Origin: Aurantiochytrium sp. KH105
Lineage: Eukaryota; Sar; Bigyra; Thraustochytrida; Thraustochytriidae
Length of the DNA stretch: 64,000 nt
Assembly (NCBI GenBank): GCA_003116975.1
Contig: BGKB01000072.1
Coordinates: 162,577 to 226,576, forward strand
Direction: 5' to 3'
Position 1 is the stretch's first letter. Every line of letters starts with the position of its first letter. Below, in pieces: positions 17,272 through 64,000 of this stretch. A model generated the notes under the pieces. It had not been told where the DNA came from. It did no database searches and was given only the letters and a program-made list of their open reading frames with translations. The position numbers were made by a program, and so were the translations under genes.

Positions 17272-17549
17272 CTAATAAAGGAATAGGAGTTCGAGGCCCA
17301 TCTTGAGCATCTGATTTTTTTTATCTTTTTTTTTTCAAATTCTGCTGCAAAATTTGTGTGGCTCTCGACAGAGGCTACGTGTACGACATCGTCTTCACGC
17401 GGCAGCGGCTTCTGGCTTGCTTTTTTTTTTGCTTTGCTTGGTCACTGGATGAGCGAGCAGCTGGCGCGCGACAGACGAGGCGTCTGGCATGAGCAGGAAG
17501 TCACACCAAGAGGCAAAACCAACCATGGCGCCGTCACGTCCCATCGGAA

Positions 17550-17621
17550 AGCGGGTTAGCTCAGAGGTAGAGTGTGGGGCCCATAACCCCAAAGTCGGCG
17601 GATCGAAACCGCCACCCGCTA
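17550..17621 (+). tRNA. Initiator tRNA-Met (CAT), copy 2, intronless
   Basis: Sequence identical to copy 1. Its ~24-bp 5' flank (GGCGCC-T/A-TCAC... CGGAA) and its trailer are also alike, so the duplicated unit was larger than the tRNA. The trailer forms a strong hairpin (17636-17645 with 17651-17660) followed by a T run at 17664-17669. Confidence 0.96.
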
Positions 17622-17635
17622 CTGTGATAGGATCC

Positions 17636-21475: not shown

Positions 21476-22723
21476 ATGACGACGGAGACGAGCTGGGAAG
21501 AGCATACGGCCCGCGCCGAAAATGCACGCGAGCTCTTCTTCTTTGAAGATGACAAGGAGGACCGCGCGTACCTCAACGGAGCGTACATGGCGCCGCTCCT
21601 TCGGGCGACTGCCGCAGCGGCCGAGAAAGGCATGCTCGTGCAAAAGCATCCGTGGGAGATGACCTTTCCAGGATCCTTTAATGATCCTATCGAGCGTCTT
21701 CGCGAGGCGCTCGGCCGCATTGTCAATGCGCCCGCGCGCAACATTGCCATCGTGCCGTCCATCGCATATGCGGCTGCCACGATCGCGATTCAAGTCGGGC
21801 CGATGCTCAAAGAGGGCGACACTGTCATTGCGCTAAAGGATCAGTACAACAGCAATGCCCTTCGCTGGCAACACCTTGCGGCCGAAAATGGCGCCAAAGC
21901 CATCTTTGTTGGCGCGTCCGAAGACGGAGACCTCACTCGCGCCGTTCTCGAGGCGCTCGAGACCGAAAATTCCCCCAAGCTCGTCGTTCTGCCCGCTCAT
22001 TGCCACTGGTGCGACGGAGCCTCCATCGACACCGCAAAGGTCACTGCTCGCGCGCACGAACTCGGGGCCCTCGTTTTTCTCGATGGCACGCAGTCCATTG
22101 GCGTCGAGCCGTTCGACGTTGCCGAAATCCAGCCCGACTTCCTCGCGGTTGCCGGATACAAGTGGTGCCTTTGCCCTTATGGTGTGTCCATGCTCTACGT
22201 TGCCGACAAGTTCTGTGTTGGAGATCCGCTCGAGCATCATGGATTCTCGCGCGAAAACGCGGGCATGCTTGCCGACGGCTCGTATGACGTCGAGTGGCTT
22301 TACACCAATCGCGAGAGCGACTACCGCGATGGTGCGCGTCGCTTCGACATGGGTGAGCGGTCGAATTTTATCACCATTGAGATGGCCCTCACTTCCCTCA
22401 AACAGGTGTATGACTGGCTGCAAGAGGACCTCGTTGGTACTCATACCCGCCAGCTTTTGGCATACCTGACGGAGGAGGCCGCGAAACTCGGTTTTGTCTG
22501 CCCCCCTTCACATTTGCATAGCTCACACATTGTCGGCATTCGTGTTCCCGACTCTACACCGGAAGAGCTTTCACGCCTCATTGCGTTTTTTAAGGAGGCG
22601 CGCATCATTGTCTCGCTCCGTGGCGATGCCGTTCGCGTCTCGCCGCATCTCTGGTCCACCAAGGCTGACGTCGATCGTCTTTTGGACTCTATGCGTGCCT
22701 TCAAGGAAGCGCGCGGTAAGTAA
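21476..22723 (+). CDS. Class V PLP-dependent aminotransferase, copy 2
   Basis: 415 residues, collinear paralog of the gene at 19214. Key elements are kept: LDGTQSIGVEPFD, LAVAGYKWCLCPYG with the predicted PLP lysine, HCHWCDG, and SLRGDAVRVSPHLW. It lacks the acidic insert near the N-terminus of copy 1. Synonymous and conservative changes are spread through its length, so this is an older duplication rather than a recent copy. Same reaction class as copy 1; substrate unknown. Confidence 0.88.
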   Translation: MTTETSWEEHTARAENARELFFFEDDKEDRAYLNGAYMAPLLRATAAAAEKGMLVQKHPWEMTFPGSFNDPIERLREALGRIVNAPARNIAIVPSIAYAAATIAIQVGPMLKEGDTVIALKDQYNSNALRWQHLAAENGAKAIFVGASEDGDLTRAVLEALETENSPKLVVLPAHCHWCDGASIDTAKVTARAHELGALVFLDGTQSIGVEPFDVAEIQPDFLAVAGYKWCLCPYGVSMLYVADKFCVGDPLEHHGFSRENAGMLADGSYDVEWLYTNRESDYRDGARRFDMGERSNFITIEMALTSLKQVYDWLQEDLVGTHTRQLLAYLTEEAAKLGFVCPPSHLHSSHIVGIRVPDSTPEELSRLIAFFKEARIIVSLRGDAVRVSPHLWSTKADVDRLLDSMRAFKEARGK

Positions 22724-37543: not shown

Positions 37544-38470
37544 ATGCTCGCGGAGCAGCCCCAGTATGAGCAAGGGCCGCAGCAGACGCAGGCTTGCCCG
37601 AAAAATGGTGGCGACGACGGCGACAGACGGCCTGAGATGAGCGCGACGAGCGGCGATCTCGAAGAAGTCATCGTGGAGGCCGTGGAATTTCCTCAAGACA
37701 CGGGGAGATGCCCGCCATCGGGATCCGACAAGGAGTGCAAGTCGAATGACGAGGCCGCTGTGCATCGTGTCAACATGTTCTTGCTTTTGCTGGTCTGTAT
37801 TCTTTTTGGAGGATTTGCTATTGCGCAAATGATCTTTGCCATCGCGGGCAACAGTCTCTCGCTTATCGGAGACTCGTCGTGCATGATTGTCGATGCAGTG
37901 ACATATGGCTTGAACATGATTGCTGAACGGCTCAAGGTGCGCGGCGTGACAGAGCGCACGCGTCTCCGTCTGGAGCTTTTCATCCCCGTTGTGAGCATGT
38001 GTGGCCTTATCGCCACAAGCATATATATCATCGATGATGCTTCCGCAACGATTTCTGCAGGCCCTCTGGCTGACGAGTCAACAGACGATATCATCATGAT
38101 TATCTTTAGCAGCATTAATCTGGGCATCGATGTGGTGAGCATGTTCTTCTTTGTGCGTGCTAGGGGCTGCTGCGGCTTTCGCACGGTCGATGAAGTGACT
38201 CCGCCTGACGCGGAGCCTAGCTCGATTCGAAACCGTAGCAACATGAACATGTGCTCTGCTTACACGCACGTCACGGCAGACACGATGCGCAGCTCTGCTG
38301 TGGTTGTCGCTGCCATCGTTTCCATCAAAGGTGAAAATGTCCATGCGGGCATTGCCGATGCTTGGGCTGCCGTTGCGGTCTCGATCATCATCTTTTTGTC
38401 CATGATTCCTCTTGTGCGCGGCATGGTGCAAAAGACCCGTCAACTTCGTAAGCTCGACACTCAGTCATAG
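37544..38470 (+). CDS. Cation diffusion facilitator (CDF) family transporter, paralog 2
   Basis: 308 residues with a ~75-residue acidic cytoplasmic N-terminus, then six membrane segments. TM2 is SLSLIGDSSCMIVD: the metal-site His/Asp position is Cys. TM5 is MCSAYTHVTADTMRS with H-x-x-x-D intact. The TM4-TM5 loop is shorter than in paralog 1 and lacks the acid-rich insert. Ends shortly after TM6 (RGMVQKTRQLRK), with no cytoplasmic C-terminal domain. Located between the other two copies on the same strand. Confidence 0.88.
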   Translation: MLAEQPQYEQGPQQTQACPKNGGDDGDRRPEMSATSGDLEEVIVEAVEFPQDTGRCPPSGSDKECKSNDEAAVHRVNMFLLLLVCILFGGFAIAQMIFAIAGNSLSLIGDSSCMIVDAVTYGLNMIAERLKVRGVTERTRLRLELFIPVVSMCGLIATSIYIIDDASATISAGPLADESTDDIIMIIFSSINLGIDVVSMFFFVRARGCCGFRTVDEVTPPDAEPSSIRNRSNMNMCSAYTHVTADTMRSSAVVVAAIVSIKGENVHAGIADAWAAVAVSIIIFLSMIPLVRGMVQKTRQLRKLDTQS

Positions 38471-39129: not shown

Positions 39130-40068
39130 ATGCTCGTTCACGAGGTAGACCAAGACGAGGGGGAAAAGGGCGATGGTCGTGACGCGAGGCCTGAGACGGT
39201 CGACCTTGAAGGCTCGGACTCTTCTTCAAAGGCGCCCACAAAGCTACACCACGCCTCTTCGTCCCCGTCGCCAACTTCATCACCACCAACTCCAGCGTTT
39301 CAAGTCGATGACTGCGATGATGCGCCGCCGCCACATGAGCGCAACATGAAGCTGCTCGCCCTCGAACTTGTCCTGTTCGGGTGCTTTGCGGCCGCTCAGC
39401 TCGCCATGTCTCTTGCAGGCGACAGTCTGTCGCTTCTTGGTGACGCGGCGTGTATGGTTGTCGACACAGCCACGTATGGCATGAATCTAGTTGCCGAGAA
39501 TTGCAAACGTCGCGGCATCCGCGAGCGCACAAGATTCCGATTGGAATTCTATATTCCTCTCGTGAGTGTGGCCGGCCTCGTGGCAACTAGCATTTATATT
39601 ATTGATCAGGCTGTAGAGGTCATTTCCGCACAAATTCCTTCTGGGCCCACCGACGACAAAGTGATGCTCATCTTTAGTAGCGTCAATCTAGGTATTGACG
39701 CGCTGAGTGTCTTCTGTTTTGTCCGCATCAAGGGATTTTTAGGATTTGAGACTGTCGATCGCGACGACGACGACGACGAGAATACAAAGGGAGGCAAGGC
39801 TGAACAGTCCAACACCAACATGTGCTCGGCGTACACGCACGTACTCGCTGACACAATGCGCAGCGTCGCTGTGATCGTCGCGGCCGTGGTATCCATGACT
39901 GTATCTGGCGTCGACGGTGGGCTCGCCGATGCCTGGGCTGCCGTCGTTGTGGCGGCCATCATCTTTGCCACGCTCATTCCACTTTTGCGCGGAATCGTTC
40001 AAAAGTACAACCAATTGCAGCACTATGTCGAGCATACTGGCAACACAGCAAACGAAAACAAGGAATAG
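39130..40068 (+). CDS. Cation diffusion facilitator (CDF) family transporter, paralog 3
   Basis: 312 residues: a ~70-residue disordered N-terminus (DSSSKAPTK, then PSPTSSPPTP), six membrane segments, SLSLLGDAACMVVD in TM2 (Cys at the metal position, as in paralog 2), MCSAYTHVLADTMRS in TM5. The TM4-TM5 loop has a short DDDDDE acidic stretch. No C-terminal cytoplasmic domain beyond about 30 polar residues. Closer in motif detail to paralog 2 at the TM2 site. Confidence 0.88.
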   Translation: MLVHEVDQDEGEKGDGRDARPETVDLEGSDSSSKAPTKLHHASSSPSPTSSPPTPAFQVDDCDDAPPPHERNMKLLALELVLFGCFAAAQLAMSLAGDSLSLLGDAACMVVDTATYGMNLVAENCKRRGIRERTRFRLEFYIPLVSVAGLVATSIYIIDQAVEVISAQIPSGPTDDKVMLIFSSVNLGIDALSVFCFVRIKGFLGFETVDRDDDDDENTKGGKAEQSNTNMCSAYTHVLADTMRSVAVIVAAVVSMTVSGVDGGLADAWAAVVVAAIIFATLIPLLRGIVQKYNQLQHYVEHTGNTANENKE

Positions 40069-48657: not shown

Positions 48658-50247
48658 ATGCAGCAGGGAGGGATGAATCTGCGATTGAACCGCGAGAATC
48701 TGGATCCCGATGTGATGACCATCACGCAGGGCAACCTCGAGGAGGTCCGCGAGCTCGTCCCACGCGTCATGGAGCAGCTCGAGTCGGATCGAGAAAACGT
48801 GACGCGTAGCGGCGGACACTCGCAGATGCAACTTATCGCGTCCGAGACCGAGCGATATTTGCACGACCTCCAGGCATGGGCTAGTCGTGCCGAGGACCTC
48901 CTCGAGCAGCAGGCTGCCGAGCAGGCGCGAGGCGTGAGCTCTGGCGGCGGTGGCGTCGACGACGACGATGACGATGACGACGACGACGACGACGACGACG
49001 ACGATGCCATGATGGGCGGTAGTGATTCCGACGGCGATGCAATGGGCCATCACCACCACAACAACAACAACAACAGCAATAACAACAACAACAACAACCA
49101 AGGAGGGAGTAACGCAGGCCGCACCGGCGCTGGACCTGGGACGTCAGCCGGCAGCGTGGGGGCGCAAGGCCACGCGTTCGGCCATCAAATTCATCAAAAC
49201 GATGGCGCGAGCATCGCCGCGGCCGCCGCGGCTGGCGGCGAGCTGCAGCGCCTGCTCGTCAGCCGTGGCCGCTTTCCCGTGTTCACCCCTCAGGGTGACC
49301 GCCTCATGGAGGGGCTCAACTACGGCAGAGACTTCTTCCTCTTTGAGCGTGTGATCCGCGATACAATCTACGGCAACATCATCCGCTCCGTGCGGGCGGA
49401 ACGTAAAGGCGACGCAAATAAACTGGTCGCGACCGAACAGCAGGTGGCAATCAAGGTGTTTCAGCGACAACTTGTCGCAGATGGGCGCGCCCGGGGTGGG
49501 CAGCCTGTGCAGGAGAATCCGCTCGATGAGCTCTCGTTCCAGCAGCGCCTCAGCCAACCCGGTCACCCCAACGTACTTGGACTGCTCGGGTGCTTTGAGG
49601 ATAACGACTACCTCTACGCCGTGCTACCTCTCGCAGGCGCCGAGCTTTTTGAAATTATTGCTACGCGCGGGCCCTTTTCGGAAGCCCAGGCGCGACCATT
49701 ATTCCGGGACATGCTCAGCTCCCTGGTCTATGTGCACGAGCACGGCATCGCACACCGCGACGTCTCGCCAGAGAACTTCCTCATGGACCTGGGCACCGGG
49801 AGACACCCGATCCTCATCGACTTTGGCCTCGCGGTACGAATGTCGCGCGCCCCCACTCACATGGCTGGTCAGGACCTCGATCGTCCACAAGTGTGGGCGC
49901 CGATCCGGCACACGGGCTTTGTTGGCAAAGTTCTTTATGCAGCGCCGGAAATGTGGGGCGACCAGCCTTACGATGGGCCTTCTGTTGATCTATGGAGCGC
50001 CGCCGTGACTCTCTTTGTGTGCATTTTCCAGGCGCCGCCCTGGGAACGAGCGCGGGCGTCGCGCCGCCGAGACGGATACGTAAATATTGTTCTGCAACAT
50101 CAGCTCCGAGCGGTGCTGCGCACGTGGAACTTTCCGGCCTCGGACAGTCTCATCGATTTGCTACAAGGGATCTTTCGTGAGAATCCTAAAGAACGATTCT
50201 CCTTGCAGACCGTCTTGCAGCACCCATGGCTGCATGAAGACAGCTGA
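48658..50247 (+). CDS. Divergent protein kinase with an HRDxSxEN catalytic loop
   Basis: 529 residues. N-terminus (1-100) is helical, then a 16-residue Asp run, a His/Asn run and a Gly-rich linker, all encoded by microsatellites (48957-49100). The kinase domain spans about 218-527: VAIKVF (lysine strand), an alpha-C region, AHRDVSPENFLMD, LIDFGLAV, GKVLYAAPE, and DLWSAAVTLFVCIF. The usual Gly-rich loop is not clear (FERVIRDTIYGNII). The catalytic loop reads HRDVSPEN where most Ser/Thr kinases have HRDLKxxN, so the Lys contacting ATP gamma-phosphate is replaced by Ser. The Asp, Asn and DFG are intact, so activity is possible. Substrate unknown. Confidence 0.88.
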   Translation: MQQGGMNLRLNRENLDPDVMTITQGNLEEVRELVPRVMEQLESDRENVTRSGGHSQMQLIASETERYLHDLQAWASRAEDLLEQQAAEQARGVSSGGGGVDDDDDDDDDDDDDDDDAMMGGSDSDGDAMGHHHHNNNNNSNNNNNNNQGGSNAGRTGAGPGTSAGSVGAQGHAFGHQIHQNDGASIAAAAAAGGELQRLLVSRGRFPVFTPQGDRLMEGLNYGRDFFLFERVIRDTIYGNIIRSVRAERKGDANKLVATEQQVAIKVFQRQLVADGRARGGQPVQENPLDELSFQQRLSQPGHPNVLGLLGCFEDNDYLYAVLPLAGAELFEIIATRGPFSEAQARPLFRDMLSSLVYVHEHGIAHRDVSPENFLMDLGTGRHPILIDFGLAVRMSRAPTHMAGQDLDRPQVWAPIRHTGFVGKVLYAAPEMWGDQPYDGPSVDLWSAAVTLFVCIFQAPPWERARASRRRDGYVNIVLQHQLRAVLRTWNFPASDSLIDLLQGIFRENPKERFSLQTVLQHPWLHEDS

Positions 50248-51145: not shown

Positions 51146-53986
51146 TCAAAGACTCTCGTCCTCAACAGCGAATTGCTTGCGCCCAGTCGCAGGCTTGCTC
51201 TTGAAAAATCGCGAAAACCGATTCGTTGCCTGTGGAGCAGCAAGCTGACGAGTTTGCTTGTGAAGACGAATTTGCTCCTGCAGATCCTGATTCTCTTCCG
51301 ACAGCTTGGCAATGGAACCGGAGCCGTCGAGCTCCGCAGCCCGCGCGCGCTCGCGCTGAAGCGCCGCACTCGAGGACATGACCATCTTCGTCACCACATT
51401 GTACTCTGAGTTCGGGTCGTAATGAATCTCCCGCTCCATGTTGTAGAGCTTACCCTGCTCGATAAACTCCTTATCGCGCTGCCAGCGACGTCGTACGAAG
51501 AGAAGTGCGCAGGCAATAAACACGAACAGGGCAAAGGCTCCACCGCCTGCGGCTCCTGCATACAAGGGCACCTTGCTGGGAGCGGCCTCCGTGGTGGGGG
51601 CAAACGGAATCGGGGACGCGGTCGGGCGAGCGGTAAGCGGGACCATGCGCACCGATCGAGCCGCTGATGCGGTCCACGCATAACCCATTGGTGTCACCGT
51701 CGCGCTCATGGTCCCATTCACGTCAAGCGGGTCGGTGAGACTCAGGTCGACGTCAAAGTAGCACCCGACACCGGCACAGACATACACATCAAACGTGCCT
51801 GGGACATCGGTCACAAGTGCTGCAGTGTACGTGCCGTCGCGATTATCAACAATCGTCGCATTAATCACCGCAGGCTCAAGTGCACCTCCGTAGTATGTCA
51901 GCTCCTCTTCGTCCTCCTCCAGCACGCGGCGCAGGCTCAACGTCTCATTAGGCAGGGGCATTGCCTCAAGTCGTTCCACAAAGAACGCGTGAAGTACGTC
52001 TCCATCACCGCCGTAGGTGATCGAATTATTGCATGCATCCCGCAAGCGCAGCGTCGGGCCACCGTACGATGTGCCATCCGCAGGCACGAGGACGGGGTCC
52101 GCTTCCTCCCCATCTTCAAAGTCAACAGACAACGTTTGCGAAGGCTCCACAGACACAGTCTCGACGGTTAAGTTCTTGATCGAGAGCGGCGACACGCTGG
52201 AACCCGAGGACGACGCGGTCGTGAATCCCACGTACGCGTTGCGATTGCCAATTATATCCTCCACCACAAAATTATCCTGGCGGAGGTACAGCGAGTCATC
52301 AATGTAGACCTGGACCCAAGACGGCGTCTCGAGATACTCGACACGGATCGTGTGGGTTTCGTCATCCCGGCGAAGCGTGCGCATAATGCCATCAAAGACG
52401 TGCTGGCTCCCAAAGTTCGGGCCAATCGAATCTCCGAGCTCATCCGCAAAGTGAATGCTCACTTGCTGCGACGTGCAGCTACCCTCGGCGCGGTCAGTGC
52501 AGAGATCAAAGACAATCGCCATAGCATGCGTGAGATACTGATAGCCAAGGCCTCCGCCCGTCGAAACGGGAAGATCCTCCAAACCATTTTCGCGGTCGTG
52601 CAGAACAAGCGCAAAACCCTCGCTCTCGCCTGCTGAGGCGAGTTGGACCTCGAACTCGATGACGAAGCCCGCGCCAACGTTTTGCTGTTTTGTTAGATAC
52701 GCAAACGACTGAATTCCATTCGGTGTGTCGGCGTCAATGAGAGCGAGCTCTGGCGACGACCCACCAAGGTTCCACGATCCTGCCCCCGGGCTCAGAAACC
52801 AGTCTGCAGCGGTGTTCTGGGTGGCCCAAGAAAACGATTTTGATCCAGATCGGACCACGTTACAATTCGAGGCGAGCGAGGTAGTGATCTTGAAGTTAGA
52901 CTTATCCGTGTGGCGCTCGGCATGAAATACGCTTAAGGGGTAAGTCTCATTCAAAGTGAGGTTGCACAAAGTCTGAACGGAGTCGACGTCGACCGAGCCT
53001 GATAACGAACCGTGCAGGCCTCCGAGGTCGACAACAAGTACATTGTTGATAAATACCCAGACATCGTCATCTCCAGTGAATTCGAACGTCTCCCCGCCGG
53101 AGTACTGGAAGTAGGTGTGAATCTCACTGGTAAACCAAAACTTGGCGTGGTACGACGTAGTCCCCGTCGACACGGTATAGCTGTGAGGCCAGGCAGGAGC
53201 CTCTTCCATCGAATAAGTCTCTTGCAAGAGACCATTGTATTCCTTAAGAGGTACAAAGTAAGGATGGTCACTGTTGGAGAGTGAGCCATCACCGTCGTAG
53301 TCGGCTTCAGAGGCGTCAAACTCGTACCAATCTTCGGCGTCGCGGTACGTGAGAATCATCTTGCGCCCTACTCGTTTGTTATATTTTGGATCATCATTGA
53401 ACCAAGATGCAAAGTACGTGGCATTCGTCGTCGTGTAAAGCCCGCTGGTCTCATGCTGACCGCACCGATCAGAGCTACAGTATTGGACCTTTGGGAGCCC
53501 CGAGTCGGATATTGCAGCAGTCTCGTTCACAGTTGCTGACATTTCCGAATCATCCGACGAGCAGCCAATTTGGCAACTTGGACCATTTACGTAGATGCTA
53601 CCTTGCCCATATGCTTCAAAGTCAGGATGACCACCAATTTCTCCCGTGCGCTGGTGTTCCCAGTACGGGCAATAGGTTCCGAGGCTGGTTTGCGAATTAG
53701 AAGCCGGAACGGTGAAGCCGGTGATTGCTGGGTCGGAGGGATCTTCGTAGTCGTACCATTCCCGTTTAACGCCTCTGAACAAGTTGCATGTAGACTCATC
53801 TGTGACCCCCCAAGCGCTGCAGTACTCGTCCTTGGGCACGCATCCTGAGGGCATAAAATCTCGGAACGTCACCGAGTACACGATCTGCTCTGCTTGAGAA
53901 TCTACAGCGCCCAGCAGGATTTGGGTCAGCACTATTGCGAGTGCAGCCAGGTCCTTTGATGACGACGACGTCATCTTCGAGTTCAT
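51146..53986 (-). CDS. Surface protein: fibro-slime + L-type-lectin-like + filamin-like domains, copy 1
   Basis: 946 residues from the ATG at 53986 (53974 is an alternative). Signal peptide: AALAIVLTQILLGAVDSQA. Order: a fibro-slime/PA14-like domain (about 20-390) with GDDDVWVFIN and VVDLGGLHG; an L-type-lectin-like domain (about 430-612) with QNVGAGFVIEFEVQLAS, EGFALVLHD and AIVFDLCTD; an Ig/filamin-like segment with VDNRDGTYTAALVTDVPGT (about 712); a Thr/Pro stalk; one membrane helix (about 809-830); a ~115-residue cytoplasmic tail starting RRRWQRDKEFIEQGKLYN, with YDPNSEYNVVTKMVMSSSA, a short coiled coil and a basic end. Such domains bind carbohydrates or Ca. A cell-surface adhesin or receptor is inferred. 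Confidence 0.9.
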   Translation of the reverse strand: MNSKMTSSSSKDLAALAIVLTQILLGAVDSQAEQIVYSVTFRDFMPSGCVPKDEYCSAWGVTDESTCNLFRGVKREWYDYEDPSDPAITGFTVPASNSQTSLGTYCPYWEHQRTGEIGGHPDFEAYGQGSIYVNGPSCQIGCSSDDSEMSATVNETAAISDSGLPKVQYCSSDRCGQHETSGLYTTTNATYFASWFNDDPKYNKRVGRKMILTYRDAEDWYEFDASEADYDGDGSLSNSDHPYFVPLKEYNGLLQETYSMEEAPAWPHSYTVSTGTTSYHAKFWFTSEIHTYFQYSGGETFEFTGDDDVWVFINNVLVVDLGGLHGSLSGSVDVDSVQTLCNLTLNETYPLSVFHAERHTDKSNFKITTSLASNCNVVRSGSKSFSWATQNTAADWFLSPGAGSWNLGGSSPELALIDADTPNGIQSFAYLTKQQNVGAGFVIEFEVQLASAGESEGFALVLHDRENGLEDLPVSTGGGLGYQYLTHAMAIVFDLCTDRAEGSCTSQQVSIHFADELGDSIGPNFGSQHVFDGIMRTLRRDDETHTIRVEYLETPSWVQVYIDDSLYLRQDNFVVEDIIGNRNAYVGFTTASSSGSSVSPLSIKNLTVETVSVEPSQTLSVDFEDGEEADPVLVPADGTSYGGPTLRLRDACNNSITYGGDGDVLHAFFVERLEAMPLPNETLSLRRVLEEDEEELTYYGGALEPAVINATIVDNRDGTYTAALVTDVPGTFDVYVCAGVGCYFDVDLSLTDPLDVNGTMSATVTPMGYAWTASAARSVRMVPLTARPTASPIPFAPTTEAAPSKVPLYAGAAGGGAFALFVFIACALLFVRRRWQRDKEFIEQGKLYNMEREIHYDPNSEYNVVTKMVMSSSAALQRERARAAELDGSGSIAKLSEENQDLQEQIRLHKQTRQLAAPQATNRFSRFFKSKPATGRKQFAVEDESL

Positions 53987-55003
53987 AAAGAATAGAACTC
54001 TTTCCGCGCAACTCAAGCAAAACGAACGAGAGCGAATTTATCCAAGCAAGGCGAATTGAAGCAGTTCAGTTGGTCCCTTCGCGCGTGTGCAGAAACGCAG
54101 CCTGTTTACCTTGTCCGGCCCCGCTCGCGGCCTTCTCGTGCCCACCTCGCGGTCTTCGGCGTTTCTTCCCGCGCTAATGCTGATCTCGTTCCCCTTCGTC
54201 GTCTCCGTCTTTCTCCCCTTTCCACCTCTCGTTCCGCGTGCCTTGCGCGCGCGCGCTCTTGTGCTTTTCGCGCTTGTGGTTTTCGCCCTTGTGCGCTTTG
54301 CTCGCTTTTCACGCGCTCCTTCCCCGCGGCCCTCGCCGCTCCCGGTCCGTCTGCGCACCGCGCGGCGCCGCGCTCGGGCCGCCTGCACCGTCGGCCGCCC
54401 CGCTTGTCTTGCGCGAGCGCGCGAGCTCTCGAGCGAGGGATTCCGAGCACGCCGCAGGCTGCAGCGTTGTGGTTTTACGCCTCCGAGTCGTCGCGCGAAA
54501 AGGGCGCGCGCGCTCCAACGATAGTAGGATACTTACCTCGCCGCACCCGAGCGGCACGTGCACAGCTAAACCTGACCAAACCTAACCGAGGTGGTAATTG
54601 CCCCGGCCTCTCTTCTGCTGCTGATGTGAGGCCATTGTGGCTGGCCAAACTTGGAACTAACTACGAACAAGGGGAGAAGCGAAGGTGACTGAACGGGGGA
54701 GGAGCGGAGGATGAAGAAGGATGTTGATGGAGGATTGGGAGAGAAGCCAAAGAGGACGTGGCTCTCCACATCTGCCGGGTCGGCTGGAAAAGGCCATGGG
54801 CGAAAAGAGATTCTGCAGGCGAGAGTCCAGGAGAATTCTGCATCGAAACCCTTGCGAGTAGATCATAGCACGCCAGATCACACAGTGCACAAGCAGCTTC
54901 AGCAGCACAGGCGGCATCAGATCGGAACGCAAATCACAACAAAGACAAAACAATAAGGTTTCTGAGCGTCCCGGGCGCGCGTCTTCGCAACGCTGGGATC
55001 AGG
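53987..55003. other. Intergenic between fibro-slime copies 1 and 2
   Basis: Pyrimidine-rich promoter of copy 1, then a GC-rich stretch. No supported gene. Confidence 0.4.
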
Positions 55004-57850
55004 TTACAACGAAAAACGATCGCCGGAGAACTCCTTTCGGCCGGCCGCGGGCTTGGAGCGGAAAAAGCGCGAGAAACGGTCCGTTCCGCGAGGCGCCGCG
55101 AGTTGATGCCTCTGTTTCTCGAGACGAACCTGCTCTTGCAGCTCCTGGTTCTCGTTCTGCAGCTGCGCGATTGGCATGGTGCCGTCGAGAGCTGCCGCGC
55201 GGGCGCGCTCGCGCTGGATCGCGGCGCTCGATGACATGACCATCTTTGTAACTACGTTGTATTCTGAGTTCGGATCGTACTGAACTTCTCGCTCCAAGTT
55301 GTACAGCTTGCCTTGCTCAATAAACTCCTTGTCGCGCTGCCAGCGACGACGGAATCTCCAGAGCACAAAGGCTGCCAGCATCAAAAGAAGAAAGGCGCCG
55401 CCGCCTGCACTCCCTGCATACACTGGTGTCATATCGTTCGAACCATCAGAAGTCGGCGCAAACGGAATGGGCGAAGCCGTTGGACGCGCTGTTAGCGGAA
55501 TCATGCGTACAGCTCGACTCGCAGACGCCGACCACTCAGAGTCCACCGTCGTCACCGTCGCGTTCATCAGCGTATTGTTTACATCCGAAGGATCCGCAGC
55601 TACAAAGTTCACCTCAAAGTAGCACCCGATTCCTGCGCACACATACACATCGTACGTTCCTGGGATCTCTGTCACAAGCGCAGCCACATACGAGCCGTCG
55701 CGATTGTCCACGACCGTCCCGTTCACCACCGCAGGCATTGAAGCACCGCCATAATACGACGCCTCCGCAAGAGCCCGCCGCAGACCCATCGTCTCGTTTG
55801 GCAATGGCGTCGCCTCGAGTCTCTCGATAAAGACAGCATTGAGCACGTCATCGTCGCCGCCATACGTGATCGAGTTGTTGCACGCGTCGCGCAGCTGCAC
55901 ACTAGGACCTCCGTACGTCTCGCCATCGGCCGGGACCAGAACGGAGTCCATTTCTTCTCCATCGTCAAAGTCAACAGCAAGCGTTGAGGCAGCGTTGACA
56001 GACACCGTTTCAATGGTCAAGTTCTTGATGGTTAGTGGCGATGCAGACGACGAGGTTGCCGTGGTGAAGCCGACGTATGCGTTGCGGTTGCCCAGAATGT
56101 TCTCGACGACAAAGTCTTTTTGACGAAGATACAGCGAGTCGTCCACATAGACCTGAAGCCACGCCGGTGTCTCGAGGTACTCGACGCGAATGGTGTGCGT
56201 CTCGTCATCGCGGCGAAGCGTACGCATGATGCCATCATATACGCGTTTGGACCCGAAACCGGATCCGACATACGCTCCAAGCTCACTGGCAAAGTGGACA
56301 GCCACTTCTTGCTTGCTGCAGGAGCCTTGAGCACGGTCCGTGCACAGATCAAAGGCGATGGCGACGGCATTGGTGAGAAAGCGGTATCCGAGGCCCTCAC
56401 CGGTCGACACAGGCAGATCGTCGAGGCCATCCTCGCGATCATGCAGAACGAGTGCAAAACCTTCGCTGAGACCCGTCGAGGCGAGCTGGACCTCGAACTC
56501 AATGACAAAGCCCGCCCCAACATTCTGCTGTTTTGTCAAGTAGGCGTATGACGGCGTTGCAAGGTACGATCCTGACGATATTAGCGTGAGCTCGGGGGAT
56601 GATCCAGACGTGTCCCAAGAAGCTGCTGGCGCGAGGAACCAATTCGCGGCAAGGTCTTGAGACCCCCAGTCAAAAGAGCTGGATCCTGATTGTACTACGT
56701 TGCAGGTAGAAGCAAGTGTAGTAGTAATTTTGAAGTTGGATGCGTCCGTGTGACGCTCCGCATGAAACATACTAAAGGAGTAGGTCTCGCCAAGCGTGAG
56801 ATTTGCCTGATCTTTGATGTCATCGACGTCGACATAGCCCGTATCGGAGGGATGATAGCCCCCAAGGTCAACGACGAGGTAATCATTGATGAATACCCAT
56901 ACGTCGTCATCGCCATCAAAGCGAAATCTCTCTCCACCCCGATACTCAAAGTAGGTTTGTATCTCGGTCGTGTACCAGAACTTGGCATGGTATGTGGACG
57001 TAGATGTTCCGGATATAAAATAGCTGTGAGGCCATGCCGGTGCCTCTTCCATAGAGTATGCTGTCTGATCGAGATGATCATAGTCTTGAAGAGGAGTGAA
57101 CTTAGGCTGGCTGCTCTCGGGGTTTGAAAGGCTTCCATCACCATCGTATTCAGAATCCGCCGCGTCATACTCGTACCAATCGTCGGTGTCGCGGTACGTG
57201 AGGACGAGTTTGCGCCCGAGTCGCTTGTTGTACTTTGCATTGTCATTGTACCATGAATCAAAGTAAGAAACATTGGAAAGTGTGTAGTAGCTGCCCGATA
57301 AAGCCTTTCCGCATCGATCATTGCCGCAAGGTTGCACCTTTGGCAGGCCTGACGATGCCGTCGCTGTTGTGCTCGAAACTGTGGCGGAGACGAGAGGGGT
57401 ACAACCTCCGACTTGGCAACTGGGTCCATTGCCGTAGACAGTACCGAACCCGTACGAGTCAGCCTCAAAATCTGGATGCCCACTAATTTTCCCCGTGCGG
57501 AGATCATCCCAGTACGGGCAGTACTGCGACAACTTTGTGTACGAATTCCAGCTCGAGACGCCGAAACCGGTGATCCTTGAGTCATTAGGATCGTCGTAGG
57601 CAAACCACGCACTTTGGATCCCGCGAAACCGACTGCTGCAGTCCGCATCGGACACACCCCATGCGCCGCAGTATTCCTCGGCTGTGACGCATGGCGCCGG
57701 CAAGAAGTCGCGAAATGTCACCGAGTACGTCACTTGTTGGCCGTGTACTTGCGCCAAGCCCACGACTGTCGCAACGACCGCAACGGCACTGACAACGGCG
57801 CCGACGAGCGCAGTTCCAGCGGCCGCCACGCCGCGTCTTGCGCCGGGCAT
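55004..57850 (-). CDS. Surface protein: fibro-slime + L-type-lectin-like + filamin-like domains, copy 2
   Basis: 948 residues from the ATG at 57850 (signal peptide: a long small-hydrophobic AVVSAVAVVATVVGLAQVHG core). The architecture is the same as copy 1: FDGDDDVWVFIN with VVDLGGYHP (about 312), lectin-like region (about 435-607), VDNRDGSYVAALVTEIPGT (about 712), Thr/Pro stalk, membrane helix (about 810-830) and tail RRRWQRDKEFIEQGKLYN, with YDPNSEYNVVTKMVMSSSA. The filamin-like part and the end of the lectin-like part (55496-56237) are nearly identical in DNA to copy 3, while the N-terminal third is much more diverged. The frame stays open upstream of 57850 over a repeat-rich leader that I exclude. 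Confidence 0.9.
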   Translation of the reverse strand: MPGARRGVAAAGTALVGAVVSAVAVVATVVGLAQVHGQQVTYSVTFRDFLPAPCVTAEEYCGAWGVSDADCSSRFRGIQSAWFAYDDPNDSRITGFGVSSWNSYTKLSQYCPYWDDLRTGKISGHPDFEADSYGFGTVYGNGPSCQVGGCTPLVSATVSSTTATASSGLPKVQPCGNDRCGKALSGSYYTLSNVSYFDSWYNDNAKYNKRLGRKLVLTYRDTDDWYEYDAADSEYDGDGSLSNPESSQPKFTPLQDYDHLDQTAYSMEEAPAWPHSYFISGTSTSTYHAKFWYTTEIQTYFEYRGGERFRFDGDDDVWVFINDYLVVDLGGYHPSDTGYVDVDDIKDQANLTLGETYSFSMFHAERHTDASNFKITTTLASTCNVVQSGSSSFDWGSQDLAANWFLAPAASWDTSGSSPELTLISSGSYLATPSYAYLTKQQNVGAGFVIEFEVQLASTGLSEGFALVLHDREDGLDDLPVSTGEGLGYRFLTNAVAIAFDLCTDRAQGSCSKQEVAVHFASELGAYVGSGFGSKRVYDGIMRTLRRDDETHTIRVEYLETPAWLQVYVDDSLYLRQKDFVVENILGNRNAYVGFTTATSSSASPLTIKNLTIETVSVNAASTLAVDFDDGEEMDSVLVPADGETYGGPSVQLRDACNNSITYGGDDDVLNAVFIERLEATPLPNETMGLRRALAEASYYGGASMPAVVNGTVVDNRDGSYVAALVTEIPGTYDVYVCAGIGCYFEVNFVAADPSDVNNTLMNATVTTVDSEWSASASRAVRMIPLTARPTASPIPFAPTSDGSNDMTPVYAGSAGGGAFLLLMLAAFVLWRFRRRWQRDKEFIEQGKLYNLEREVQYDPNSEYNVVTKMVMSSSAAIQRERARAAALDGTMPIAQLQNENQELQEQVRLEKQRHQLAAPRGTDRFSRFFRSKPAAGRKEFSGDRFSL
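55496..56237 (-). repeat. Near-identity tract shared with copy 3 (partner 59690-60431)
   Basis: 742 bp aligned at a constant offset of 4194 with no gaps and six mismatches by eye; the first 422 bp (55496-55917) are identical. Both edges are sharp on the stalk side and more gradual toward the lectin N-terminal half. Confidence 0.9.
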
Positions 57851-58455
57851 ATTTCGCCCAGAGCAAAAAGCCCAGAGCAACGCAGCGCAAGGCCACGCAA
57901 GGCAGCACAACGCAAGGCCACACAACGCAAGGCCACGCAAGGCAGCGTGCAGCGTGCAGCGTGCAGCGTGCACGCCCGCGCTCGCGTTGGCGGTCTGCTC
58001 GTCTGCTCGCCTCTGCTTACCTTCCTTCGCGCCTGCCTCTCCATACCTTCACTGCGCGCACGCGCAGCATCATGGACGCAGGCCTGGAAGCATAGACACG
58101 TCCTTTCCTCGACCGTCCTTTCCTGGTCTTCCTTCCTTCCCTCGCTCGCTCGCGCCGCCCACTCTCTCGCCCTTGCTCTCTGCGCCGTCGCTCTTGCCGT
58201 CGCTCTTGCCGTCGCTCTGACACCGCGCTCCTTGAACCGGGCGCTGCACGCGCGGTCCGCGTGCGGCGCTGCTGCAGCTGCAGCTACTGCTGCTGCTGCT
58301 CGCGCCCGGCGCGGCGACGGCGGTGCGGCAGGGAGCGACGCTCCGTGTCGACCGCGCTGCGGATTCTCAAGCTGCCGAGGCGAGGCAGGTCGATTGGGCC
58401 GGGGTGCGGCACGCGCGGCATTTATCCTTTCTCCTATCTGGCCGTTATCGTGCGG

Positions 58456-58495
58456 CTCGAGCTGGGCGGGCGAAGAGTCGCCTGCCCAGCTCGAG
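58456..58495. repeat. Long inverted repeat (18-bp arms, 4-bp loop)
   Basis: CTCGAGCTGGGCGGGCGA and TCGCCTGCCCAGCTCGAG pair with one mismatch around the loop AGAG. It lies upstream of copy 2. Confidence 0.85.
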
Positions 58496-58915
58496 TCGCG
58501 CCGGCCCTGGCGCCCTCGCGCAGCACCGCGCGGCGCGCAGGGCGAAAGCGGGGGCGTCGCGTCGCGCGGCGCTGCGCCGCTGACGCTGCGCCGCCGACGC
58601 TGCGCTGCTGCTGCGAGCGCGGGCGGCGGCGCCTGGCGCGTGCGGGTGCCCTTGCGCGCGCGGTCTGTGATGACAGGCGCGCGGTGTCTTCGGGAAGCTG
58701 CGTGGCCGTGAACCTTGCTTGCGCCACGCACAGTCATGAAGTGCGCAGAGTTCTGCAATGTGCGTGAGTGCGTGCAGCAGCAGCTGCAGCAGCCAGGCGC
58801 CGAGATTCGAGCGCGCGCCGCTTTCGCACGACCGGCGGGCGGGGGAAGGAAGGAAGGGAGGAAGGAAGCGGAGCTGGAAGGAGATGAGGAGGGATGGATG
58901 GATGGATGAACTGAT

Positions 58916-58983
58916 GGAAGGAAGGAAGGAAGGAAGGAAGGAAGGAAGGAAGGAAGGAAGGAAGGAAGGAAGGAAGGAAGGAA
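58916..58983 (+). repeat. GGAA tetranucleotide microsatellite
   Basis: Seventeen uninterrupted GGAA copies, preceded by imperfect GGAT/GGAA units from about 58845. Confidence 0.95.
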
Positions 58984-59194
58984 TCTTGCTCATTACGCTG
59001 GTGAGCATGCATGGAGGGTCGCCCGAGGGGATCGAGATGGGATCTCGACTAGGCTAGGTATGACAGCGAAAATGATGTGATGCAAAATTGACTTTGACGT
59101 TCGGAAATTTGTTATGGCCTACCTTGCTAGCTAGCCACAATGTGACATCGAGGCTGCCTGCCTGGGGGATATGGTAAGTGAAAGAGCCACGTCA

Positions 59195-62050
59195 TCACGG
59201 TGCCTCGGTCTCATCGATGGGGAACTGCCGACGATCGCGGACAGGGACGCGGAACTTTTGCGATAGGCGGTTCATACCCCCACGCAGTAAACCACGTTGG
59301 CGATCCTGCTTTGCGAAGCGCACCTGGTCCTGAAGCTCCTGCCTCTCGGAGTGCAGTTGTGAAATCGTTGTGGCATGTGTACCCTCGCCAAGTCGAGCAC
59401 GCTCGCGCTGGATCGCAGCGCTCGTTGACATGACCATGCGCGTGACAAGATTATACTCTGTATTAGGGTCGTAGTGGACCTCACGCTCCAAGTTGTACAG
59501 CTTGCCCTGCTCAATAAACTCTTTATCGCGCTGCCAGCGACGACGATACACCAACATTGCAATTGCGAATACACTCGCCGTCAAGAACGCGCCTCCACCT
59601 CCATATGTCGCATACTTCAATACCTTCGTATCTTGGTTCTCGACGGCCCCAGGGTTCGCCTCCTCGGCTATTGTGGGTCGCGGGGTTATCGGAATCATGC
59701 GTACAGCTCGACTCGCAGACGCCGACCACTCAGAGTCCACCGTCGTCACCGTCGCGTTCATCAGCGTATTGTTTACATCCGAAGGATCCGCAGCTACAAA
59801 GTTCACCTCAAAGTAGCACCCGATTCCTGCGCACACATACACATCGTACGTTCCTGGGATCTCTGTCACAAGCGCAGCCACATACGAGCCGTCGCGATTG
59901 TCCACGACCGTCCCGTTCACCACCGCAGGCATTGAAGCACCGCCATAATACGACGCCTCCGCAAGAGCCCGCCGCAGACCCATCGTCTCGTTTGGCAATG
60001 GCGTCGCCTCGAGTCTCTCGATAAAGACAGCATTGAGCACGTCATCGTCGCCGCCATACGTGATCGAGTTGTTGCACGCGTCGCGCAGCTGCACACTAGG
60101 ACCTCCGTACGCCTCGCCATCGGCCGGGACCAGAACGGAGTCCATTTCTTCTCCATCATCAAAGTCAACAGCAAGCGTTGAGGCAGCGTTGACAGACACC
60201 GTTTCAATGGTCAAGTTCTTGATGGTTAGTGGCGATGCAGATGACGAGGTTGCCGTGGTGAAGCCGACGTATGCGTTGCGGTTGCCCAGAATGTTCTCGA
60301 CGACAAAGTCTTTTTGACGGAGATACAGCGAGTCATCTACATAGACCTGAAGCCACGCCGGTGTCTCGAGGTACTCGACGCGAATGGTGTGCGTCTCGTC
60401 ATCGCGGCGAAGCGTACGCATGATGCCATCGTATACACGCTTGGTGTCAAAGCCTGACCCGACAAAGCTCCCAAGCTCGTCCGCATATTGAACGCTTACC
60501 TCTTGCACTGTACAGTGCCCTTCGGCACGGTCCGTGCACAGATCAAAGGCGACAGCGACAGCGTTGGTGAGAAAGCGGTATCCGAGGCCTTGGCCCGTCG
60601 ACACGGGCAGATCGTCGAGGCCATCCTCACGATCATGCAGCACGAGTGCAAAACCTTCGCTGAGACCCGCCGAGGCGAGCTGGACCTCGAACTCAATGAC
60701 AAAGCCCGCCCCAACATTCTGCTGTTTCGTCAAGTAGGCGTATGACGGCGTGCCAATCTTTGTGTCTGACGATATTAGCGCGAGCTCGGGGGATGATCCA
60801 GGCGTATCCCAAGAAGCTGCTGGTGCGAGGAACCAGTTGGCGGCAATGTCCTGAGACTCCCATGTAAAAGAGCTGGACCCTGATTGCACTACGTTGCAAG
60901 TGGACGCAAGTGTGGTGGTAATCTTGAAGTTGGATGCGTCCGTGTGCCGCTCGGCATGAAAAAAACTAATCGAGTAGGTCTCGCCAAGTGTGAGATTTGC
61001 CAGGTCTGCTACATCATCCACATTCACTGCACCCGACAAACGACTGTGCAGACCGCCAAGGTCGACGACAAGCTCATCGTTGATAAAGACCCAAAAGTCA
61101 TCGTCACCGGTGAACTGAAAGTATTCGCCACCGCGGTACTCAAAGTACGAATGTATCTCTGTGGTAAATCCCATCTTGGACTTGCGCACGTTGTCGTCAC
61201 CAGTATACCCGTAATAGCTGTGCGGCCACGCCGGTGCTTCAGCCACGGAGTACGATGTCTGCGAAAGACTGACAAACGCCTTGAGTGGTACGAAATAGGG
61301 GACGTTATCGTTGGTGATCTCAGTGGAAGCCGCGTCCTCAGCTGCGTCAAAGACATAGTACCCGCTTTGCTCGCGATACGTGAGAGTCATCTTCCTTCCG
61401 ACACGTTTGTTGTACTTGGGATCGTCATTGTACCACGATGCAAAGTATGTGGCATTCGTTGTTGTGTACAGACCGGAAGCCTCATGATACCCGCATCTTC
61501 GTGCGTTACAGTATTGAATTTTAGGGAGACCCGAAACCGCGGTCTTGGTCTGATTGAGAACCGTCTCTTTAATATTGGGTGTGCATCCTTCGCCACGCAC
61601 GCAACTTGGCCCGTTCTGGTAATGCGTGAACCAAAACCCATACGCCTCAAAGTCTGGGTGCCCGCTTATGGTCCCGGATCGAAGATCAGACCAATAAGGA
61701 CAATATGTACCTAGCTCGACCGCTCCTTTTTCGAAAAAGGGCCATGGCGTCCAGAAATTACTTGCCGCGGCAAAGGAGGTCGTACGGTGATCAAACCAGC
61801 CGTCTTGAACGCCTCCATACTTGCCCCAGTCACCCTGACTCGCGAGATCAACCTCCCAAGCAGACGCATAGACATGAGACTCCAAGCACCCTGCCGGCAA
61901 GAAATCTCGCACCGTCACAGCGTACACAATTGAGTCCCTATGAGCGTGTGCGACGCTCGCCGCGATGGCCAACACCAGCACAAGCATCGCAGCGGTCGGG
62001 ACTCGTGTCACCGCGATGCCCATCTTGCGCATCTTGCTCATCTCCGGCAT
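59195..62050 (-). CDS. Surface protein: fibro-slime + L-type-lectin-like + filamin-like domains, copy 3
   Basis: 951 residues with signal peptide (AAMLVLVLAIAASVAHA). Same order as copies 1 and 2: FTGDDDFWVFIN and VVDLGGLHS (about 317), lectin-like region (about 437-607), VDNRDGSYVAALVTEIPGT (about 713), stalk, membrane helix (about 813-836), tail RRRWQRDKEFIEQGKLYN and YDPNTEYNLVTRMVMSTSA. Distinct features: its N-terminal region is the most diverged (for example the early Cys in the E-Y-C-S/G-A-W position is Ala), and the stalk differs (EEANPGAVENQD). The filamin-like part is almost identical to copy 2. The tail end differs (RRQFPIDETEAP). Confidence 0.9.
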   Translation of the reverse strand: MPEMSKMRKMGIAVTRVPTAAMLVLVLAIAASVAHAHRDSIVYAVTVRDFLPAGCLESHVYASAWEVDLASQGDWGKYGGVQDGWFDHRTTSFAAASNFWTPWPFFEKGAVELGTYCPYWSDLRSGTISGHPDFEAYGFWFTHYQNGPSCVRGEGCTPNIKETVLNQTKTAVSGLPKIQYCNARRCGYHEASGLYTTTNATYFASWYNDDPKYNKRVGRKMTLTYREQSGYYVFDAAEDAASTEITNDNVPYFVPLKAFVSLSQTSYSVAEAPAWPHSYYGYTGDDNVRKSKMGFTTEIHSYFEYRGGEYFQFTGDDDFWVFINDELVVDLGGLHSRLSGAVNVDDVADLANLTLGETYSISFFHAERHTDASNFKITTTLASTCNVVQSGSSSFTWESQDIAANWFLAPAASWDTPGSSPELALISSDTKIGTPSYAYLTKQQNVGAGFVIEFEVQLASAGLSEGFALVLHDREDGLDDLPVSTGQGLGYRFLTNAVAVAFDLCTDRAEGHCTVQEVSVQYADELGSFVGSGFDTKRVYDGIMRTLRRDDETHTIRVEYLETPAWLQVYVDDSLYLRQKDFVVENILGNRNAYVGFTTATSSSASPLTIKNLTIETVSVNAASTLAVDFDDGEEMDSVLVPADGEAYGGPSVQLRDACNNSITYGGDDDVLNAVFIERLEATPLPNETMGLRRALAEASYYGGASMPAVVNGTVVDNRDGSYVAALVTEIPGTYDVYVCAGIGCYFEVNFVAADPSDVNNTLMNATVTTVDSEWSASASRAVRMIPITPRPTIAEEANPGAVENQDTKVLKYATYGGGGAFLTASVFAIAMLVYRRRWQRDKEFIEQGKLYNLEREVHYDPNTEYNLVTRMVMSTSAAIQRERARLGEGTHATTISQLHSERQELQDQVRFAKQDRQRGLLRGGMNRLSQKFRVPVRDRRQFPIDETEAP
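59690..60431 (-). repeat. Near-identity tract shared with copy 2 (partner 55496-56237)
   Basis: Partner of the copy 2 tract; the 422 bp at 59690-60111 are identical to 55496-55917. The sequence immediately outside on the membrane-anchor side (below 59690) is clearly different between copies. Confidence 0.9.
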
Positions 62051-62589
62051 CCTTCGACCTCATTCAGTTTTGCTCGTGCATGCAGCAGTATCATGTGGTA
62101 CCATCGGGTACCACCCAAAAGACGGCGAGATTGGATTCTCGTACGACATACGGCGGAGGGAAGGAGGGCAGGAGGGAAGGAGGGAAGGAGGGAAGGAGGG
62201 AAGGAAGGAGGGGGCCGGCAGGCAAAGCCGGGTTACCCTGCGGTAGACAGGTAGGTGGGAAAACGGGCGCGCGCAGCTGTCCATTTGAATGTAATGATGG
62301 GCGGAAAAAAAGCCAAAGTCCATCTTTCTGGGGCCAGGACGGTCCATTTTTTTTATAATTATTTTTACCATTTTGATTTTCTGAGGAATGGCTGCATACG
62401 TGCAGGGAGAAGAGAGCCCGCGCAAGAGAATCACAATATACAAAAAGATCCTTTTACAAAAATTCGCCACAAATATCAATCACTCTCTCCTTACCTCCTT
62501 CCCTCGCTCGCTCGCTCGCTCAGGCCAATCAATCCAACCCGTGGCCGGGGCCCCGCCCTCCCCGCCCGGTTCGAGAACTCGCCAACTCT
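62051..62589. other. Intergenic with GGGAA repeats
   Basis: Promoter side of copy 3 and the 3' flank of the MAPKK-like kinase. Holds a GGAGGGAAGGAGGGAAGG-type array (about 62160-62212) and CTCGCTCGCTCGCTCG (about 62505-62521). Confidence 0.45.
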
Positions 62590-64000
62590 CTACTTTTGCT
62601 TGGTCAGAGAAATGCTCGACGAAGCAGACGAGGACGAAGACACGAGCGGGCGCCGCTTCGGTTGATGTGCTGCAGCCGCTACATTAAAGGAACGCTTGAC
62701 AACTTGAGCAGGGAGCATGATTTGCGCAGCGAGGTTGTTGATCTTGGCGTCAGAGATGGACATTTCCACGATGCCATGACTGTCTGCGCGAGATTCGCCA
62801 ATCTTGGCACGCGTTCGCGGATTGCGCGCCGCCTTGGACATGACGCCAAAAGCAATATCCTGGAGGGTCGCACGCGAGCTCTCTGCACTTGCCATGACCA
62901 GTGTATCGTCCTTGCTCGTCGAGAGGTCCAGATCAAGCTTGCTATTATGCAAACGCAACCAGGGATGTTCCAAAAGTTCTGCCGCAGTTGGTCGGGCCTC
63001 CGGATCCAGAGCAAGCATCAGGCTCAGAAAATTACGCAGCTCCGGCGAGGGCGTAATGGATCTTTGCATCTGTTCGAGCAGTGGCGAAAAATGCACAAGC
63101 TCCGTGGGTATCTCGACGGCCCGCCCCGATCCCCAACGCTCCAAGAGCTTCCAGTACACGGAAGATCCCTGCCCGGGCTCGGCGCCATTGACCTCCTCGC
63201 TGCTCATTCCAGACAACGAGGCGAGCGAGGCTTGCCGCGTCTTGCCGTCTGATCCGATTGTCTGCAGCTGTTGTGAAGCGACGGTCCTCTCCGATCCTTC
63301 CTCGATGAGATACATGGGAAAGTCGCCAAGCAATACGGTCAGGAGTGTGAGTCCCAGCGACCAGATGTCACTGGGAAAAGAGTACTTTTCGCCGCGGAGT
63401 CGCTCGGGCGACATGTACTTCATCGTGCCAGCAAAAGTATTGGCCATGCTGTCCTTCTCGAGCTGTTTCGATAAACCAAAGTCAGCAAGCTTGACCTGCG
63501 ACCGGGAGTTGATCAGAACATTCGCGGGTTTGATGTCGAGGTGCACAAAGTTTTGTTCGTGCAAATACGCCAACGCGCGGAGCACGCTGCGCGAAATCAG
63601 CGCCAGCATCAGCTCGTCTACGACCCCTGTGCTCGAAGCGACGCCTCCCTGCGGCGCTGGAGGCGAACCTGTCGATACCATCGCTGTCGATGACGATGCC
63701 AAGAGATCTTGCTGGCGATGCTGGAGCGGCCCTGGTGGCGGCGGCGGCGATGGGGACATAGCATGGGCATGATGATTCATCATGTGCTTGACGCTCGAGG
63801 TGCCAGACCCATGCGTGGCGACCGTGTCGTTCGAGGACTGGCGTGACCGCAGACGATTGAAGCCACGCACAGCCTTGCGCGACGAGGCAAGAAGCGACCG
63901 GGAAAGCATATCCGCCTGATTGTTTGCCGCCTGCCGAGCAGCCTGCTTGAAGCGCGAGAGCAAATCCTGCAGACTACCGCCATCCATGAGCTCCATGACA
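62590..64000 (-). CDS. MAPKK-like (STE7-type) protein kinase, 5' end outside window
   Basis: At least 469 residues. The window edge cuts the protein just before the hinge (VMELMDGGSLQDLL), so the N-lobe is missing here. Visible: a long low-complexity insert (about residues 15-125) between hinge and catalytic loop; VHLDIKPANVL (HRD replaced by HLD); KLADFGLSKQL; an activation segment S-M-A-N-T-F-A-G-T-M-K-Y-M-S-P-E-R-L like MAPKKs; Y-S-F-P-S-D-I-W-S-L-G-L-T-L-L; another insert (about 213-285); and the C-lobe ending LEHPWLRLHNSK. A ~130-residue tail ends in a serine run. The Ser and Thr in the activation loop sit where MAP3Ks phosphorylate. It may act in a MAPK cascade. Confidence 0.88.
   Translation of the reverse strand, partial: VMELMDGGSLQDLLSRFKQAARQAANNQADMLSRSLLASSRKAVRGFNRLRSRQSSNDTVATHGSGTSSVKHMMNHHAHAMSPSPPPPPGPLQHRQQDLLASSSTAMVSTGSPPAPQGGVASSTGVVDELMLALISRSVLRALAYLHEQNFVHLDIKPANVLINSRSQVKLADFGLSKQLEKDSMANTFAGTMKYMSPERLRGEKYSFPSDIWSLGLTLLTVLLGDFPMYLIEEGSERTVASQQLQTIGSDGKTRQASLASLSGMSSEEVNGAEPGQGSSVYWKLLERWGSGRAVEIPTELVHFSPLLEQMQRSITPSPELRNFLSLMLALDPEARPTAAELLEHPWLRLHNSKLDLDLSTSKDDTLVMASAESSRATLQDIAFGVMSKAARNPRTRAKIGESRADSHGIVEMSISDAKINNLAAQIMLPAQVVKRSFNVAAAAHQPKRRPLVSSSSSASSSISLTKQK

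Follow-up and report, generated by a model that had tools for sequence, protein, structure and literature searches.

Several described systems resemble parts of the proteins reported here (sources with PMC numbers are cited for the excerpts available). The sugar-binding calcium of PA14 lectins is held by an Asp-Asp pair, to which a later-loop Asn is added in the fungal ones (PMC8092209, PMC6218569). In the psi proteins a PA14 domain is followed by PF00526 cysteine repeats (PMC3325183), psi being the name of the Dictyostelium prespore-inducing factors (PMC6830349). Dictyostelium DPF is a single-pass surface protein whose ectodomain is released (PMC6889452). GEX2 of plants and FUS1 of Chlamydomonas contain filamin-like or immunoglobulin (Ig)-like domains, and FUS1 crosses the membrane once, its N-terminal part being extracellular (PMC9187738, PMC8777248). 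In a stretch of 64,000 nucleotides from the thraustochytrid Aurantiochytrium sp. KH105 (contig BGKB01000072.1, positions 162,577 to 226,576; hereafter the window), three neighbouring genes, g1, g2 and g3, were found in which a fibro-slime/PA14 head, an L-type-lectin fold and a filamin-like Ig fold are combined in one predicted membrane protein. The architecture would be new, each of its modules being already known: in the open-licence literature searched by listing, no description was found of the fibro-slime, lectin and filamin combination, of the invariant positions in its tail or of a homogenisation confined to the middle of two copies.

The head is held in common with bacterial fibro-slime proteins (TIGR02148; Fibrobacter, Myxococcota and others), but among the matches listed none extends beyond residue 462, and most of the lectin domain as well as the Ig, transmembrane (TM) and tail regions are not reached. 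The fungal PA14/Flo5-type flocculins and MpPA14 have the same two calcium Asp residues, and the fungal proteins also the Asn (PMC6218569, PMC8092209). However, the flocculins are wall proteins with a glycosylphosphatidylinositol anchor and MpPA14 lies within a giant bacterial adhesin, whereas g1, g2 and g3 have lectin and Ig domains and, in place of the anchor, a TM helix followed by a tail of 115-116 residues. The Dictyostelium psi/DicA family shares the PA14-type head, but its PF00526 repeats gave no match in g1, g2 or g3 at E<=1. Compared by descriptions alone, GEX2 and FUS1 are similar in filamin-like fold and single-pass topology, and the trio differs in having one Ig domain plus the lectin and PA14 domains. 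Relative to known L-type lectins (the M. jannaschii legume lectin domain 7elv, ERGIC-53, VIP36, legume lectins), the sugar-Asp position and the metal-loop region are altered.

We lean towards explaining the trio as a tandem, thraustochytrid-type family of type I adhesins or receptors, in which the head would bind glycans in a calcium-dependent manner and the tail would provide a cytosolic anchor. The genes are uninterrupted minus-strand open reading frames (ORFs) arranged head to tail. In all three, a signal peptide is followed by a head of about 350 residues with a terminal fibro-slime/PA14 domain, the L-type-lectin fold, the filamin-like Ig fold, a short Thr/Pro stalk, one TM helix and a tail of about 115 residues. 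A preliminary description of this DNA had proposed three adjacent genes of about 950 residues with this order, and had considered the products surface receptors or adhesins; the order was recovered in proteins of 946, 948 and 951 amino acids, and the general idea withstood the tests made. The features are as follows.

51146..53986, minus strand: g1, predicted type I membrane protein, 946 amino acids, fibro-slime E 1.1e-31; start taken as ATG 53986 (ORF-list start, upstream TTG 54016)
51149..51493, minus strand: predicted cytoplasmic tail of g1, residues 832-946, C-terminal RKQF
55004..57850, minus strand: g2, predicted type I membrane protein, 948 amino acids, fibro-slime E 2.3e-30; start taken as ATG 57850 (ORF-list start, GTG 57973)
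55007..55351, minus strand: predicted cytoplasmic tail of g2, residues 834-948, C-terminal RKEF
55491..56813, minus strand: g2 side of the homogenised tract
59195..62050, minus strand: g3, predicted type I membrane protein, 951 amino acids, fibro-slime E 8.1e-31
61937..62050, minus strand: signal peptide region of g3, residues 1-38, predicted from the hydrophobic segment 12-30
60893..61936, minus strand: g3 head, residues 39-386, by sequence models
60908-61177, minus strand: g3 fibro-slime/PA14 core, residues 292-381, with GDDD at 315-318 and SNF at 373-375
60233..60892, minus strand: g3 L-type-lectin-like domain, residues 387-606 (fold matches 390-622)
59693..60232, minus strand: g3 linker and extracellular filamin-like Ig domain, residues 607-786
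59685..61007, minus strand: g3 side of the homogenised tract, from about residue 348, 93.2% identical over 1327 columns
59606..59692, minus strand: g3 Thr/Pro stalk, residues 787-815, from sequence (model confidence low at 791-813)
59546..59605, minus strand: g3 TM helix, residues 816-835
59198..59545, minus strand: predicted cytoplasmic tail of g3, residues 836-951, juxtamembrane RRRWQRDK, C-terminal RRQF

Each protein contains two hydrophobic segments, at the N terminus and directly before RRRWQRDK. All nine N-glycosylation sequons per protein lie N-terminal of the TM helix, and the tails contain no cysteine; over 24 family tails, 6 sequons and 3 cysteines were counted, compared with 234 and 281 in the ectodomains. 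Together with the positive charges after the TM helix, these distributions fit type I topology by sequence rules, with the tail in the cytosol as had been proposed. Two more helices are predicted in the g3 tail (865-887 and 893-923).

A first protein search scored 7994 candidates, 65 of which matched at E<=0.001, and a profile search gave 444, of which 120 were listed; among the matches listed, those below the family proper span just 9-29% of the query. The 27 aligned rows draw on P0001-P0020 and P0066-P0073 of the two sets, and the matches of 9-29% coverage were left unaligned. P0015, which is out of frame in its second half, the fused model P0066, and P0070 and P0071, which lack lectin and Ig, were excluded from the alignments, and P0003, P0072 and P0073, with unusable tails, from the tail counts. 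In prokaryote genomes, among the best 80 of at least 509 loci, all 79 listed match the query within residues 79-462, two or three of them entering the beginning of the lectin region and the rest matching the head only; two loci on viral contigs also match the head only. The full-architecture members that carry a species name come from the thraustochytrid Hondaea fermentalgiana. g1 shares 96.8% identity with the latter half of P0066, and g2 94.6% with P0003, values that point to a near relative or strain of Hondaea as the origin of the window. When contigs of equal size are taken as one, at least seven Hondaea heads are counted: P0003 and two in P0066 (58,023-base contig), P0008, P0070 and P0071 (117,783) and P0005 (115,439). 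Several of the public Hondaea models look faulty, since P0066 fuses two genes and P0070 and P0071 run from head directly into tail, possibly through false introns; P0003 is partial.

The head is well matched by sequence models. TIGR02148 scores 109.2, 104.9 and 106.3 bits in g1, g2 and g3 (curated cut-off 45) and matches all 27 rows at E<=0.001, while PF07691 (PA14) scores 42, 26.3 and 31.5 bits (Pfam gathering score 24) and matches 25 of 27 rows at E<=0.01. All 25 rows with data keep GDDD, and 26 of 27 keep N374, the SNF Asn. With this consecutive Asp pair and later-loop Asn, the head would, as far as sequence can tell, belong with the PA14/Flo5-type calcium lectins.

Structure predictions covered the full-length protein and the piece 600-792. 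By structure search, the lectin region is a legume-lectin beta sandwich and the Ig region a filamin-type Ig sandwich, in agreement with the folds first claimed. The match of the lectin region to PF18483 (Lectin_L-type_dom; 35.2-36.0 bits, E about 1e-8) lies under the gathering score of 78.3. The positions taken as the legume sugar and metal sites, assigned from the known fold and the alignment with 7elv, are partly changed: residue 503, in the place of a metal ligand, is Asp in 24 rows and Glu in 2 of 26, and the canonical sugar site (Asp before Gly, sugar loop) is absent. The filamin family of actin cross-linkers is marked by actin-binding CH domains, and these gave no Pfam match at E<=1 in g1, g2 or g3. 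A link of the filamin-like domain to the cell cortex had been suggested; the domain is placed outside the cell and so offers no argument for it.

Several observations weigh against the explanation favoured here. At the sugar-Asp position of the lectin domain, Glu occupies 19 of 26 rows, including g1, g2 and g3, Asp only one and other residues six, and the metal-loop region has a Cys pair (Cys 505 in 24/24 rows with data, Cys 513 in 23/26). Given these departures from the legume type, the lectin domain may have no sugar ligand. The filamin profile was matched over about 32 residues. In the head, the Flo5-type sites were assigned by motif order without superposition, the PA14 core had two weak sequence matches in PDB (E 0.016 and 1.3), and fold evidence comes from sequence models, the lectin domain having occupied the whole list of the full-length fold search. 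Finally, in the excerpt available, no PA14, fibro-slime or lectin protein is mentioned in the main text of a proteomic study of the thraustochytrid ectoplasmic net (PMC12221091). Of the two domains, the PA14 head is probably the likelier sugar reader, since the calcium-site residues are kept there whereas the lectin-domain site is altered.

The tail had been described as nearly identical among the three proteins, beneath ectodomains that diverge. It can be seen that this applies to its first 40 residues (836-875; 88, 90 and 92% identity between pairs) and not to the whole tail, which at 57, 61 and 77% lies below the ectodomain (66, 75 and 67%) in two of the three pairs. Across the 21 near-full-length rows compared all against all, mean pairwise identity is 52.5% for the PA14 core, 40.5% for the first 40 tail residues, 37.5% for the ectodomain and 34.2% for the tail, and the contrast of varying ectodomain and conserved tail did not hold as worded. 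Divergence is concentrated in most of the head, in stalk and TM helix and in the C-terminal tail; the lectin and Ig domains are homogenised between g2 and g3. The YDPN-E-Y motif holds among nearer relatives; family-wide, W839, G849 and F943 are invariant in 24/24 tails. A C-terminal [RK][RK]xF ending at F943, noticed first and counted afterwards, is present in 21 of 24 tails compared with 3.3 expected from shuffling. Because of the three invariant positions, a common cytosolic partner is plausible, with W839, G849 and F943/[RK][RK]xF as the best candidate contacts. With the g2 tail alone as query (residues 831-950, translated piece), only 2 of 567 candidates, P0005 and P0006, matched at E<=0.001, a weak negative given that candidates were limited to 0.55-1.75 times the query length and other known family tails were missed. 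A tail module on other ectodomains was not supported by this weak negative, both matches having the same architecture. Likenesses to the B-cell receptor alpha chain (E 0.0099), syndecan-2 (E 0.58) and an ErbB1 TM model (E 0.021) were set aside as look-alikes of TM plus basic juxtamembrane segments.

The history of g2 and g3 is mosaic. Their nucleotide difference is 30-67% over residues 1-360 and 20-52% in stalk, TM and tail, intermediate at 3-13% over residues 361-510 and only 0-3% over residues 541-780. The tract starts between GDDD and SNF, late in the head, and ends with 419 consecutive identical compared columns (residues 647-787). At three-way variable sites the longest g2-g3 run is 130, compared with at most 16 in 2000 shuffles; the longest g1-g2 run is 9 (reached in 4/2000) and the longest g1-g3 run 5 (392/2000). 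Trees of ten rows were built for head, lectin plus Ig, and tail. The head tree joins g1 and g2 (support 100/99) and rejects g2+g3 (approximately unbiased test, p-AU 4.3e-5), and the lectin plus Ig tree joins g2 and g3 (100/100) and rejects g1+g2 (p-AU 0.0099) and g3+P0001 (p-AU 0.00012), these p values being nominal because the groups were picked after the identities and a first tree had been seen. The head data are compatible with a single clade of g1, g2 and g3 (p-AU 0.25). Pairing of g3 with P0001 by the head was supported in the first tree (93/91) and not resolved in a later one, and no claim is made of it; the signal of the tail trees was too weak for any group to be resolved. Within the tract, a divergent island at residues 511-540 (g3 60431-60520), where the altered metal-loop region of the lectin domain ends, differs by 39% between g2 and g3; it could be held apart by selection or mark the border of two conversion events.

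This tract is most simply explained by gene conversion or ectopic recombination. That the near-identity is an assembly artefact is considered very unlikely. The identical final columns would suit it, as would two Hondaea models reminiscent of repeat collapse: P0066, in which a g3-type head is joined to a g2-type tail, as expected from either recombination or collapse, and P0003, whose g2-type head ends inside the tract. However, simple collapse would yield one identical block, and the identity is graded (87-88% at residues 361-450, 97-100% at 541-780) and broken by the island; g2 and g3 also keep their own heads and tails. Low-complexity repeats, 80-88% identical, lie at 58844-58983, about 1 kb upstream of g2, and at 62155-62212, about 0.1 kb upstream of g3, and could aid mispairing between copies.

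Other roles for the proteins were also weighed. The ectodomain might be cut off as a diffusible signal or density factor, leaving a stub of TM helix and tail, as in Dictyostelium DPF. Hondaea copies are labelled psiA, psiG, psiQ and psiR, after the Dictyostelium prespore-inducing factors (PMC6830349), DPF sheds its ectodomain while its TM/tail part affects adhesion (PMC6889452), and the stalk, modelled as poorly ordered, could serve as a cleavage site. We regard this role as unlikely, as the PF00526 repeats gave no match in the trio at E up to 1 and the DPF tail has about 30 residues (PMC6889452) compared with about 115, with invariant positions, in the trio. The psi identity was likewise rejected, and because the repeats were not found the psi name should be dropped for this family. 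An intracellular cargo receptor of the secretory pathway, comparable to ERGIC-53, VIP36 and Emp46/47, would agree with the lectin fold. Such receptors are expected to end in a KKxx-type sorting signal, but the trio ends in DESL, RFSL and TEAP; to our knowledge they have no PA14 head or Ig domain, and tandem copies with diverging heads would suit a surface role better, making this role quite improbable. A role as adhesins of mating or cell-cell recognition would suit the filamin-like fold on the outer side of the trio, and GEX2 and FUS1 provide a precedent (PMC9187738, PMC8777248). In the excerpts available, neither is described with a PA14 or lectin domain, and little credence is given to this possibility.

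Protein kinase ORFs border the cluster on each side (48658-50247, plus strand; 62590-63996, minus strand), and no fourth copy was found within the window by tblastn. Other neighbouring pairs in the window are class-V aminotransferase ORFs (19214-20488 and 21476-22723, plus strand), cation-efflux ORFs (37544-38470 and 39130-40068, plus strand) and tRNA-Met genes (17200-17272 and 17550-17622). Judging by the presence of such pairs, tandem duplication may be commonplace in this window.

Under the adhesin or receptor explanation, the head would bind glycans through the PA14 calcium site, formed by GDDD together with N374. The lectin and filamin-like folds would hold it off the membrane, possibly with a second, non-canonical contact, and stalk and TM helix would lead to a tail whose juxtamembrane Trp/Gly and [RK][RK]xF bind the common cytosolic partner. 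Duplicates would retain distinct heads while their lectin and Ig domains are evened out by gene conversion or ectopic recombination, so that heads may be free to diverge on shared bodies. With these proteins the cell may attach to substrate, to prey or to other cells. Domain order, the lectin and Ig folds, the conserved residues and the mosaic pattern are observed, whereas topology follows from sequence rules, and glycan binding, the cytosolic partner and the use in attachment are inferred. A bolder and rather doubtful proposal is that the trio forms a recognition array, with tandem heads differing in the glycan read, conversion-matched bodies and one cytosolic partner, into which the Trp/Gly juxtamembrane helix and [RK][RK]xF end would plug; through recombination within the bodies they share, the loci would exchange heads and tails. 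If so, thraustochytrids would possess renewable receptors for substrate, prey or self/non-self, and Hondaea P0066 would be a real swap product.

These findings provide a clear case of a surface protein homogenised in its middle only, and show psi to be a misleading gene name. Thraustochytrids settle by means of an ectoplasmic net, for which, in the excerpt available, the proteins put forward in a proteomic study of 2025 are all untested candidates (PMC12221091). The trio family offers taggable proteins whose head is predicted to read glycans and whose conserved internal motif could serve as bait.
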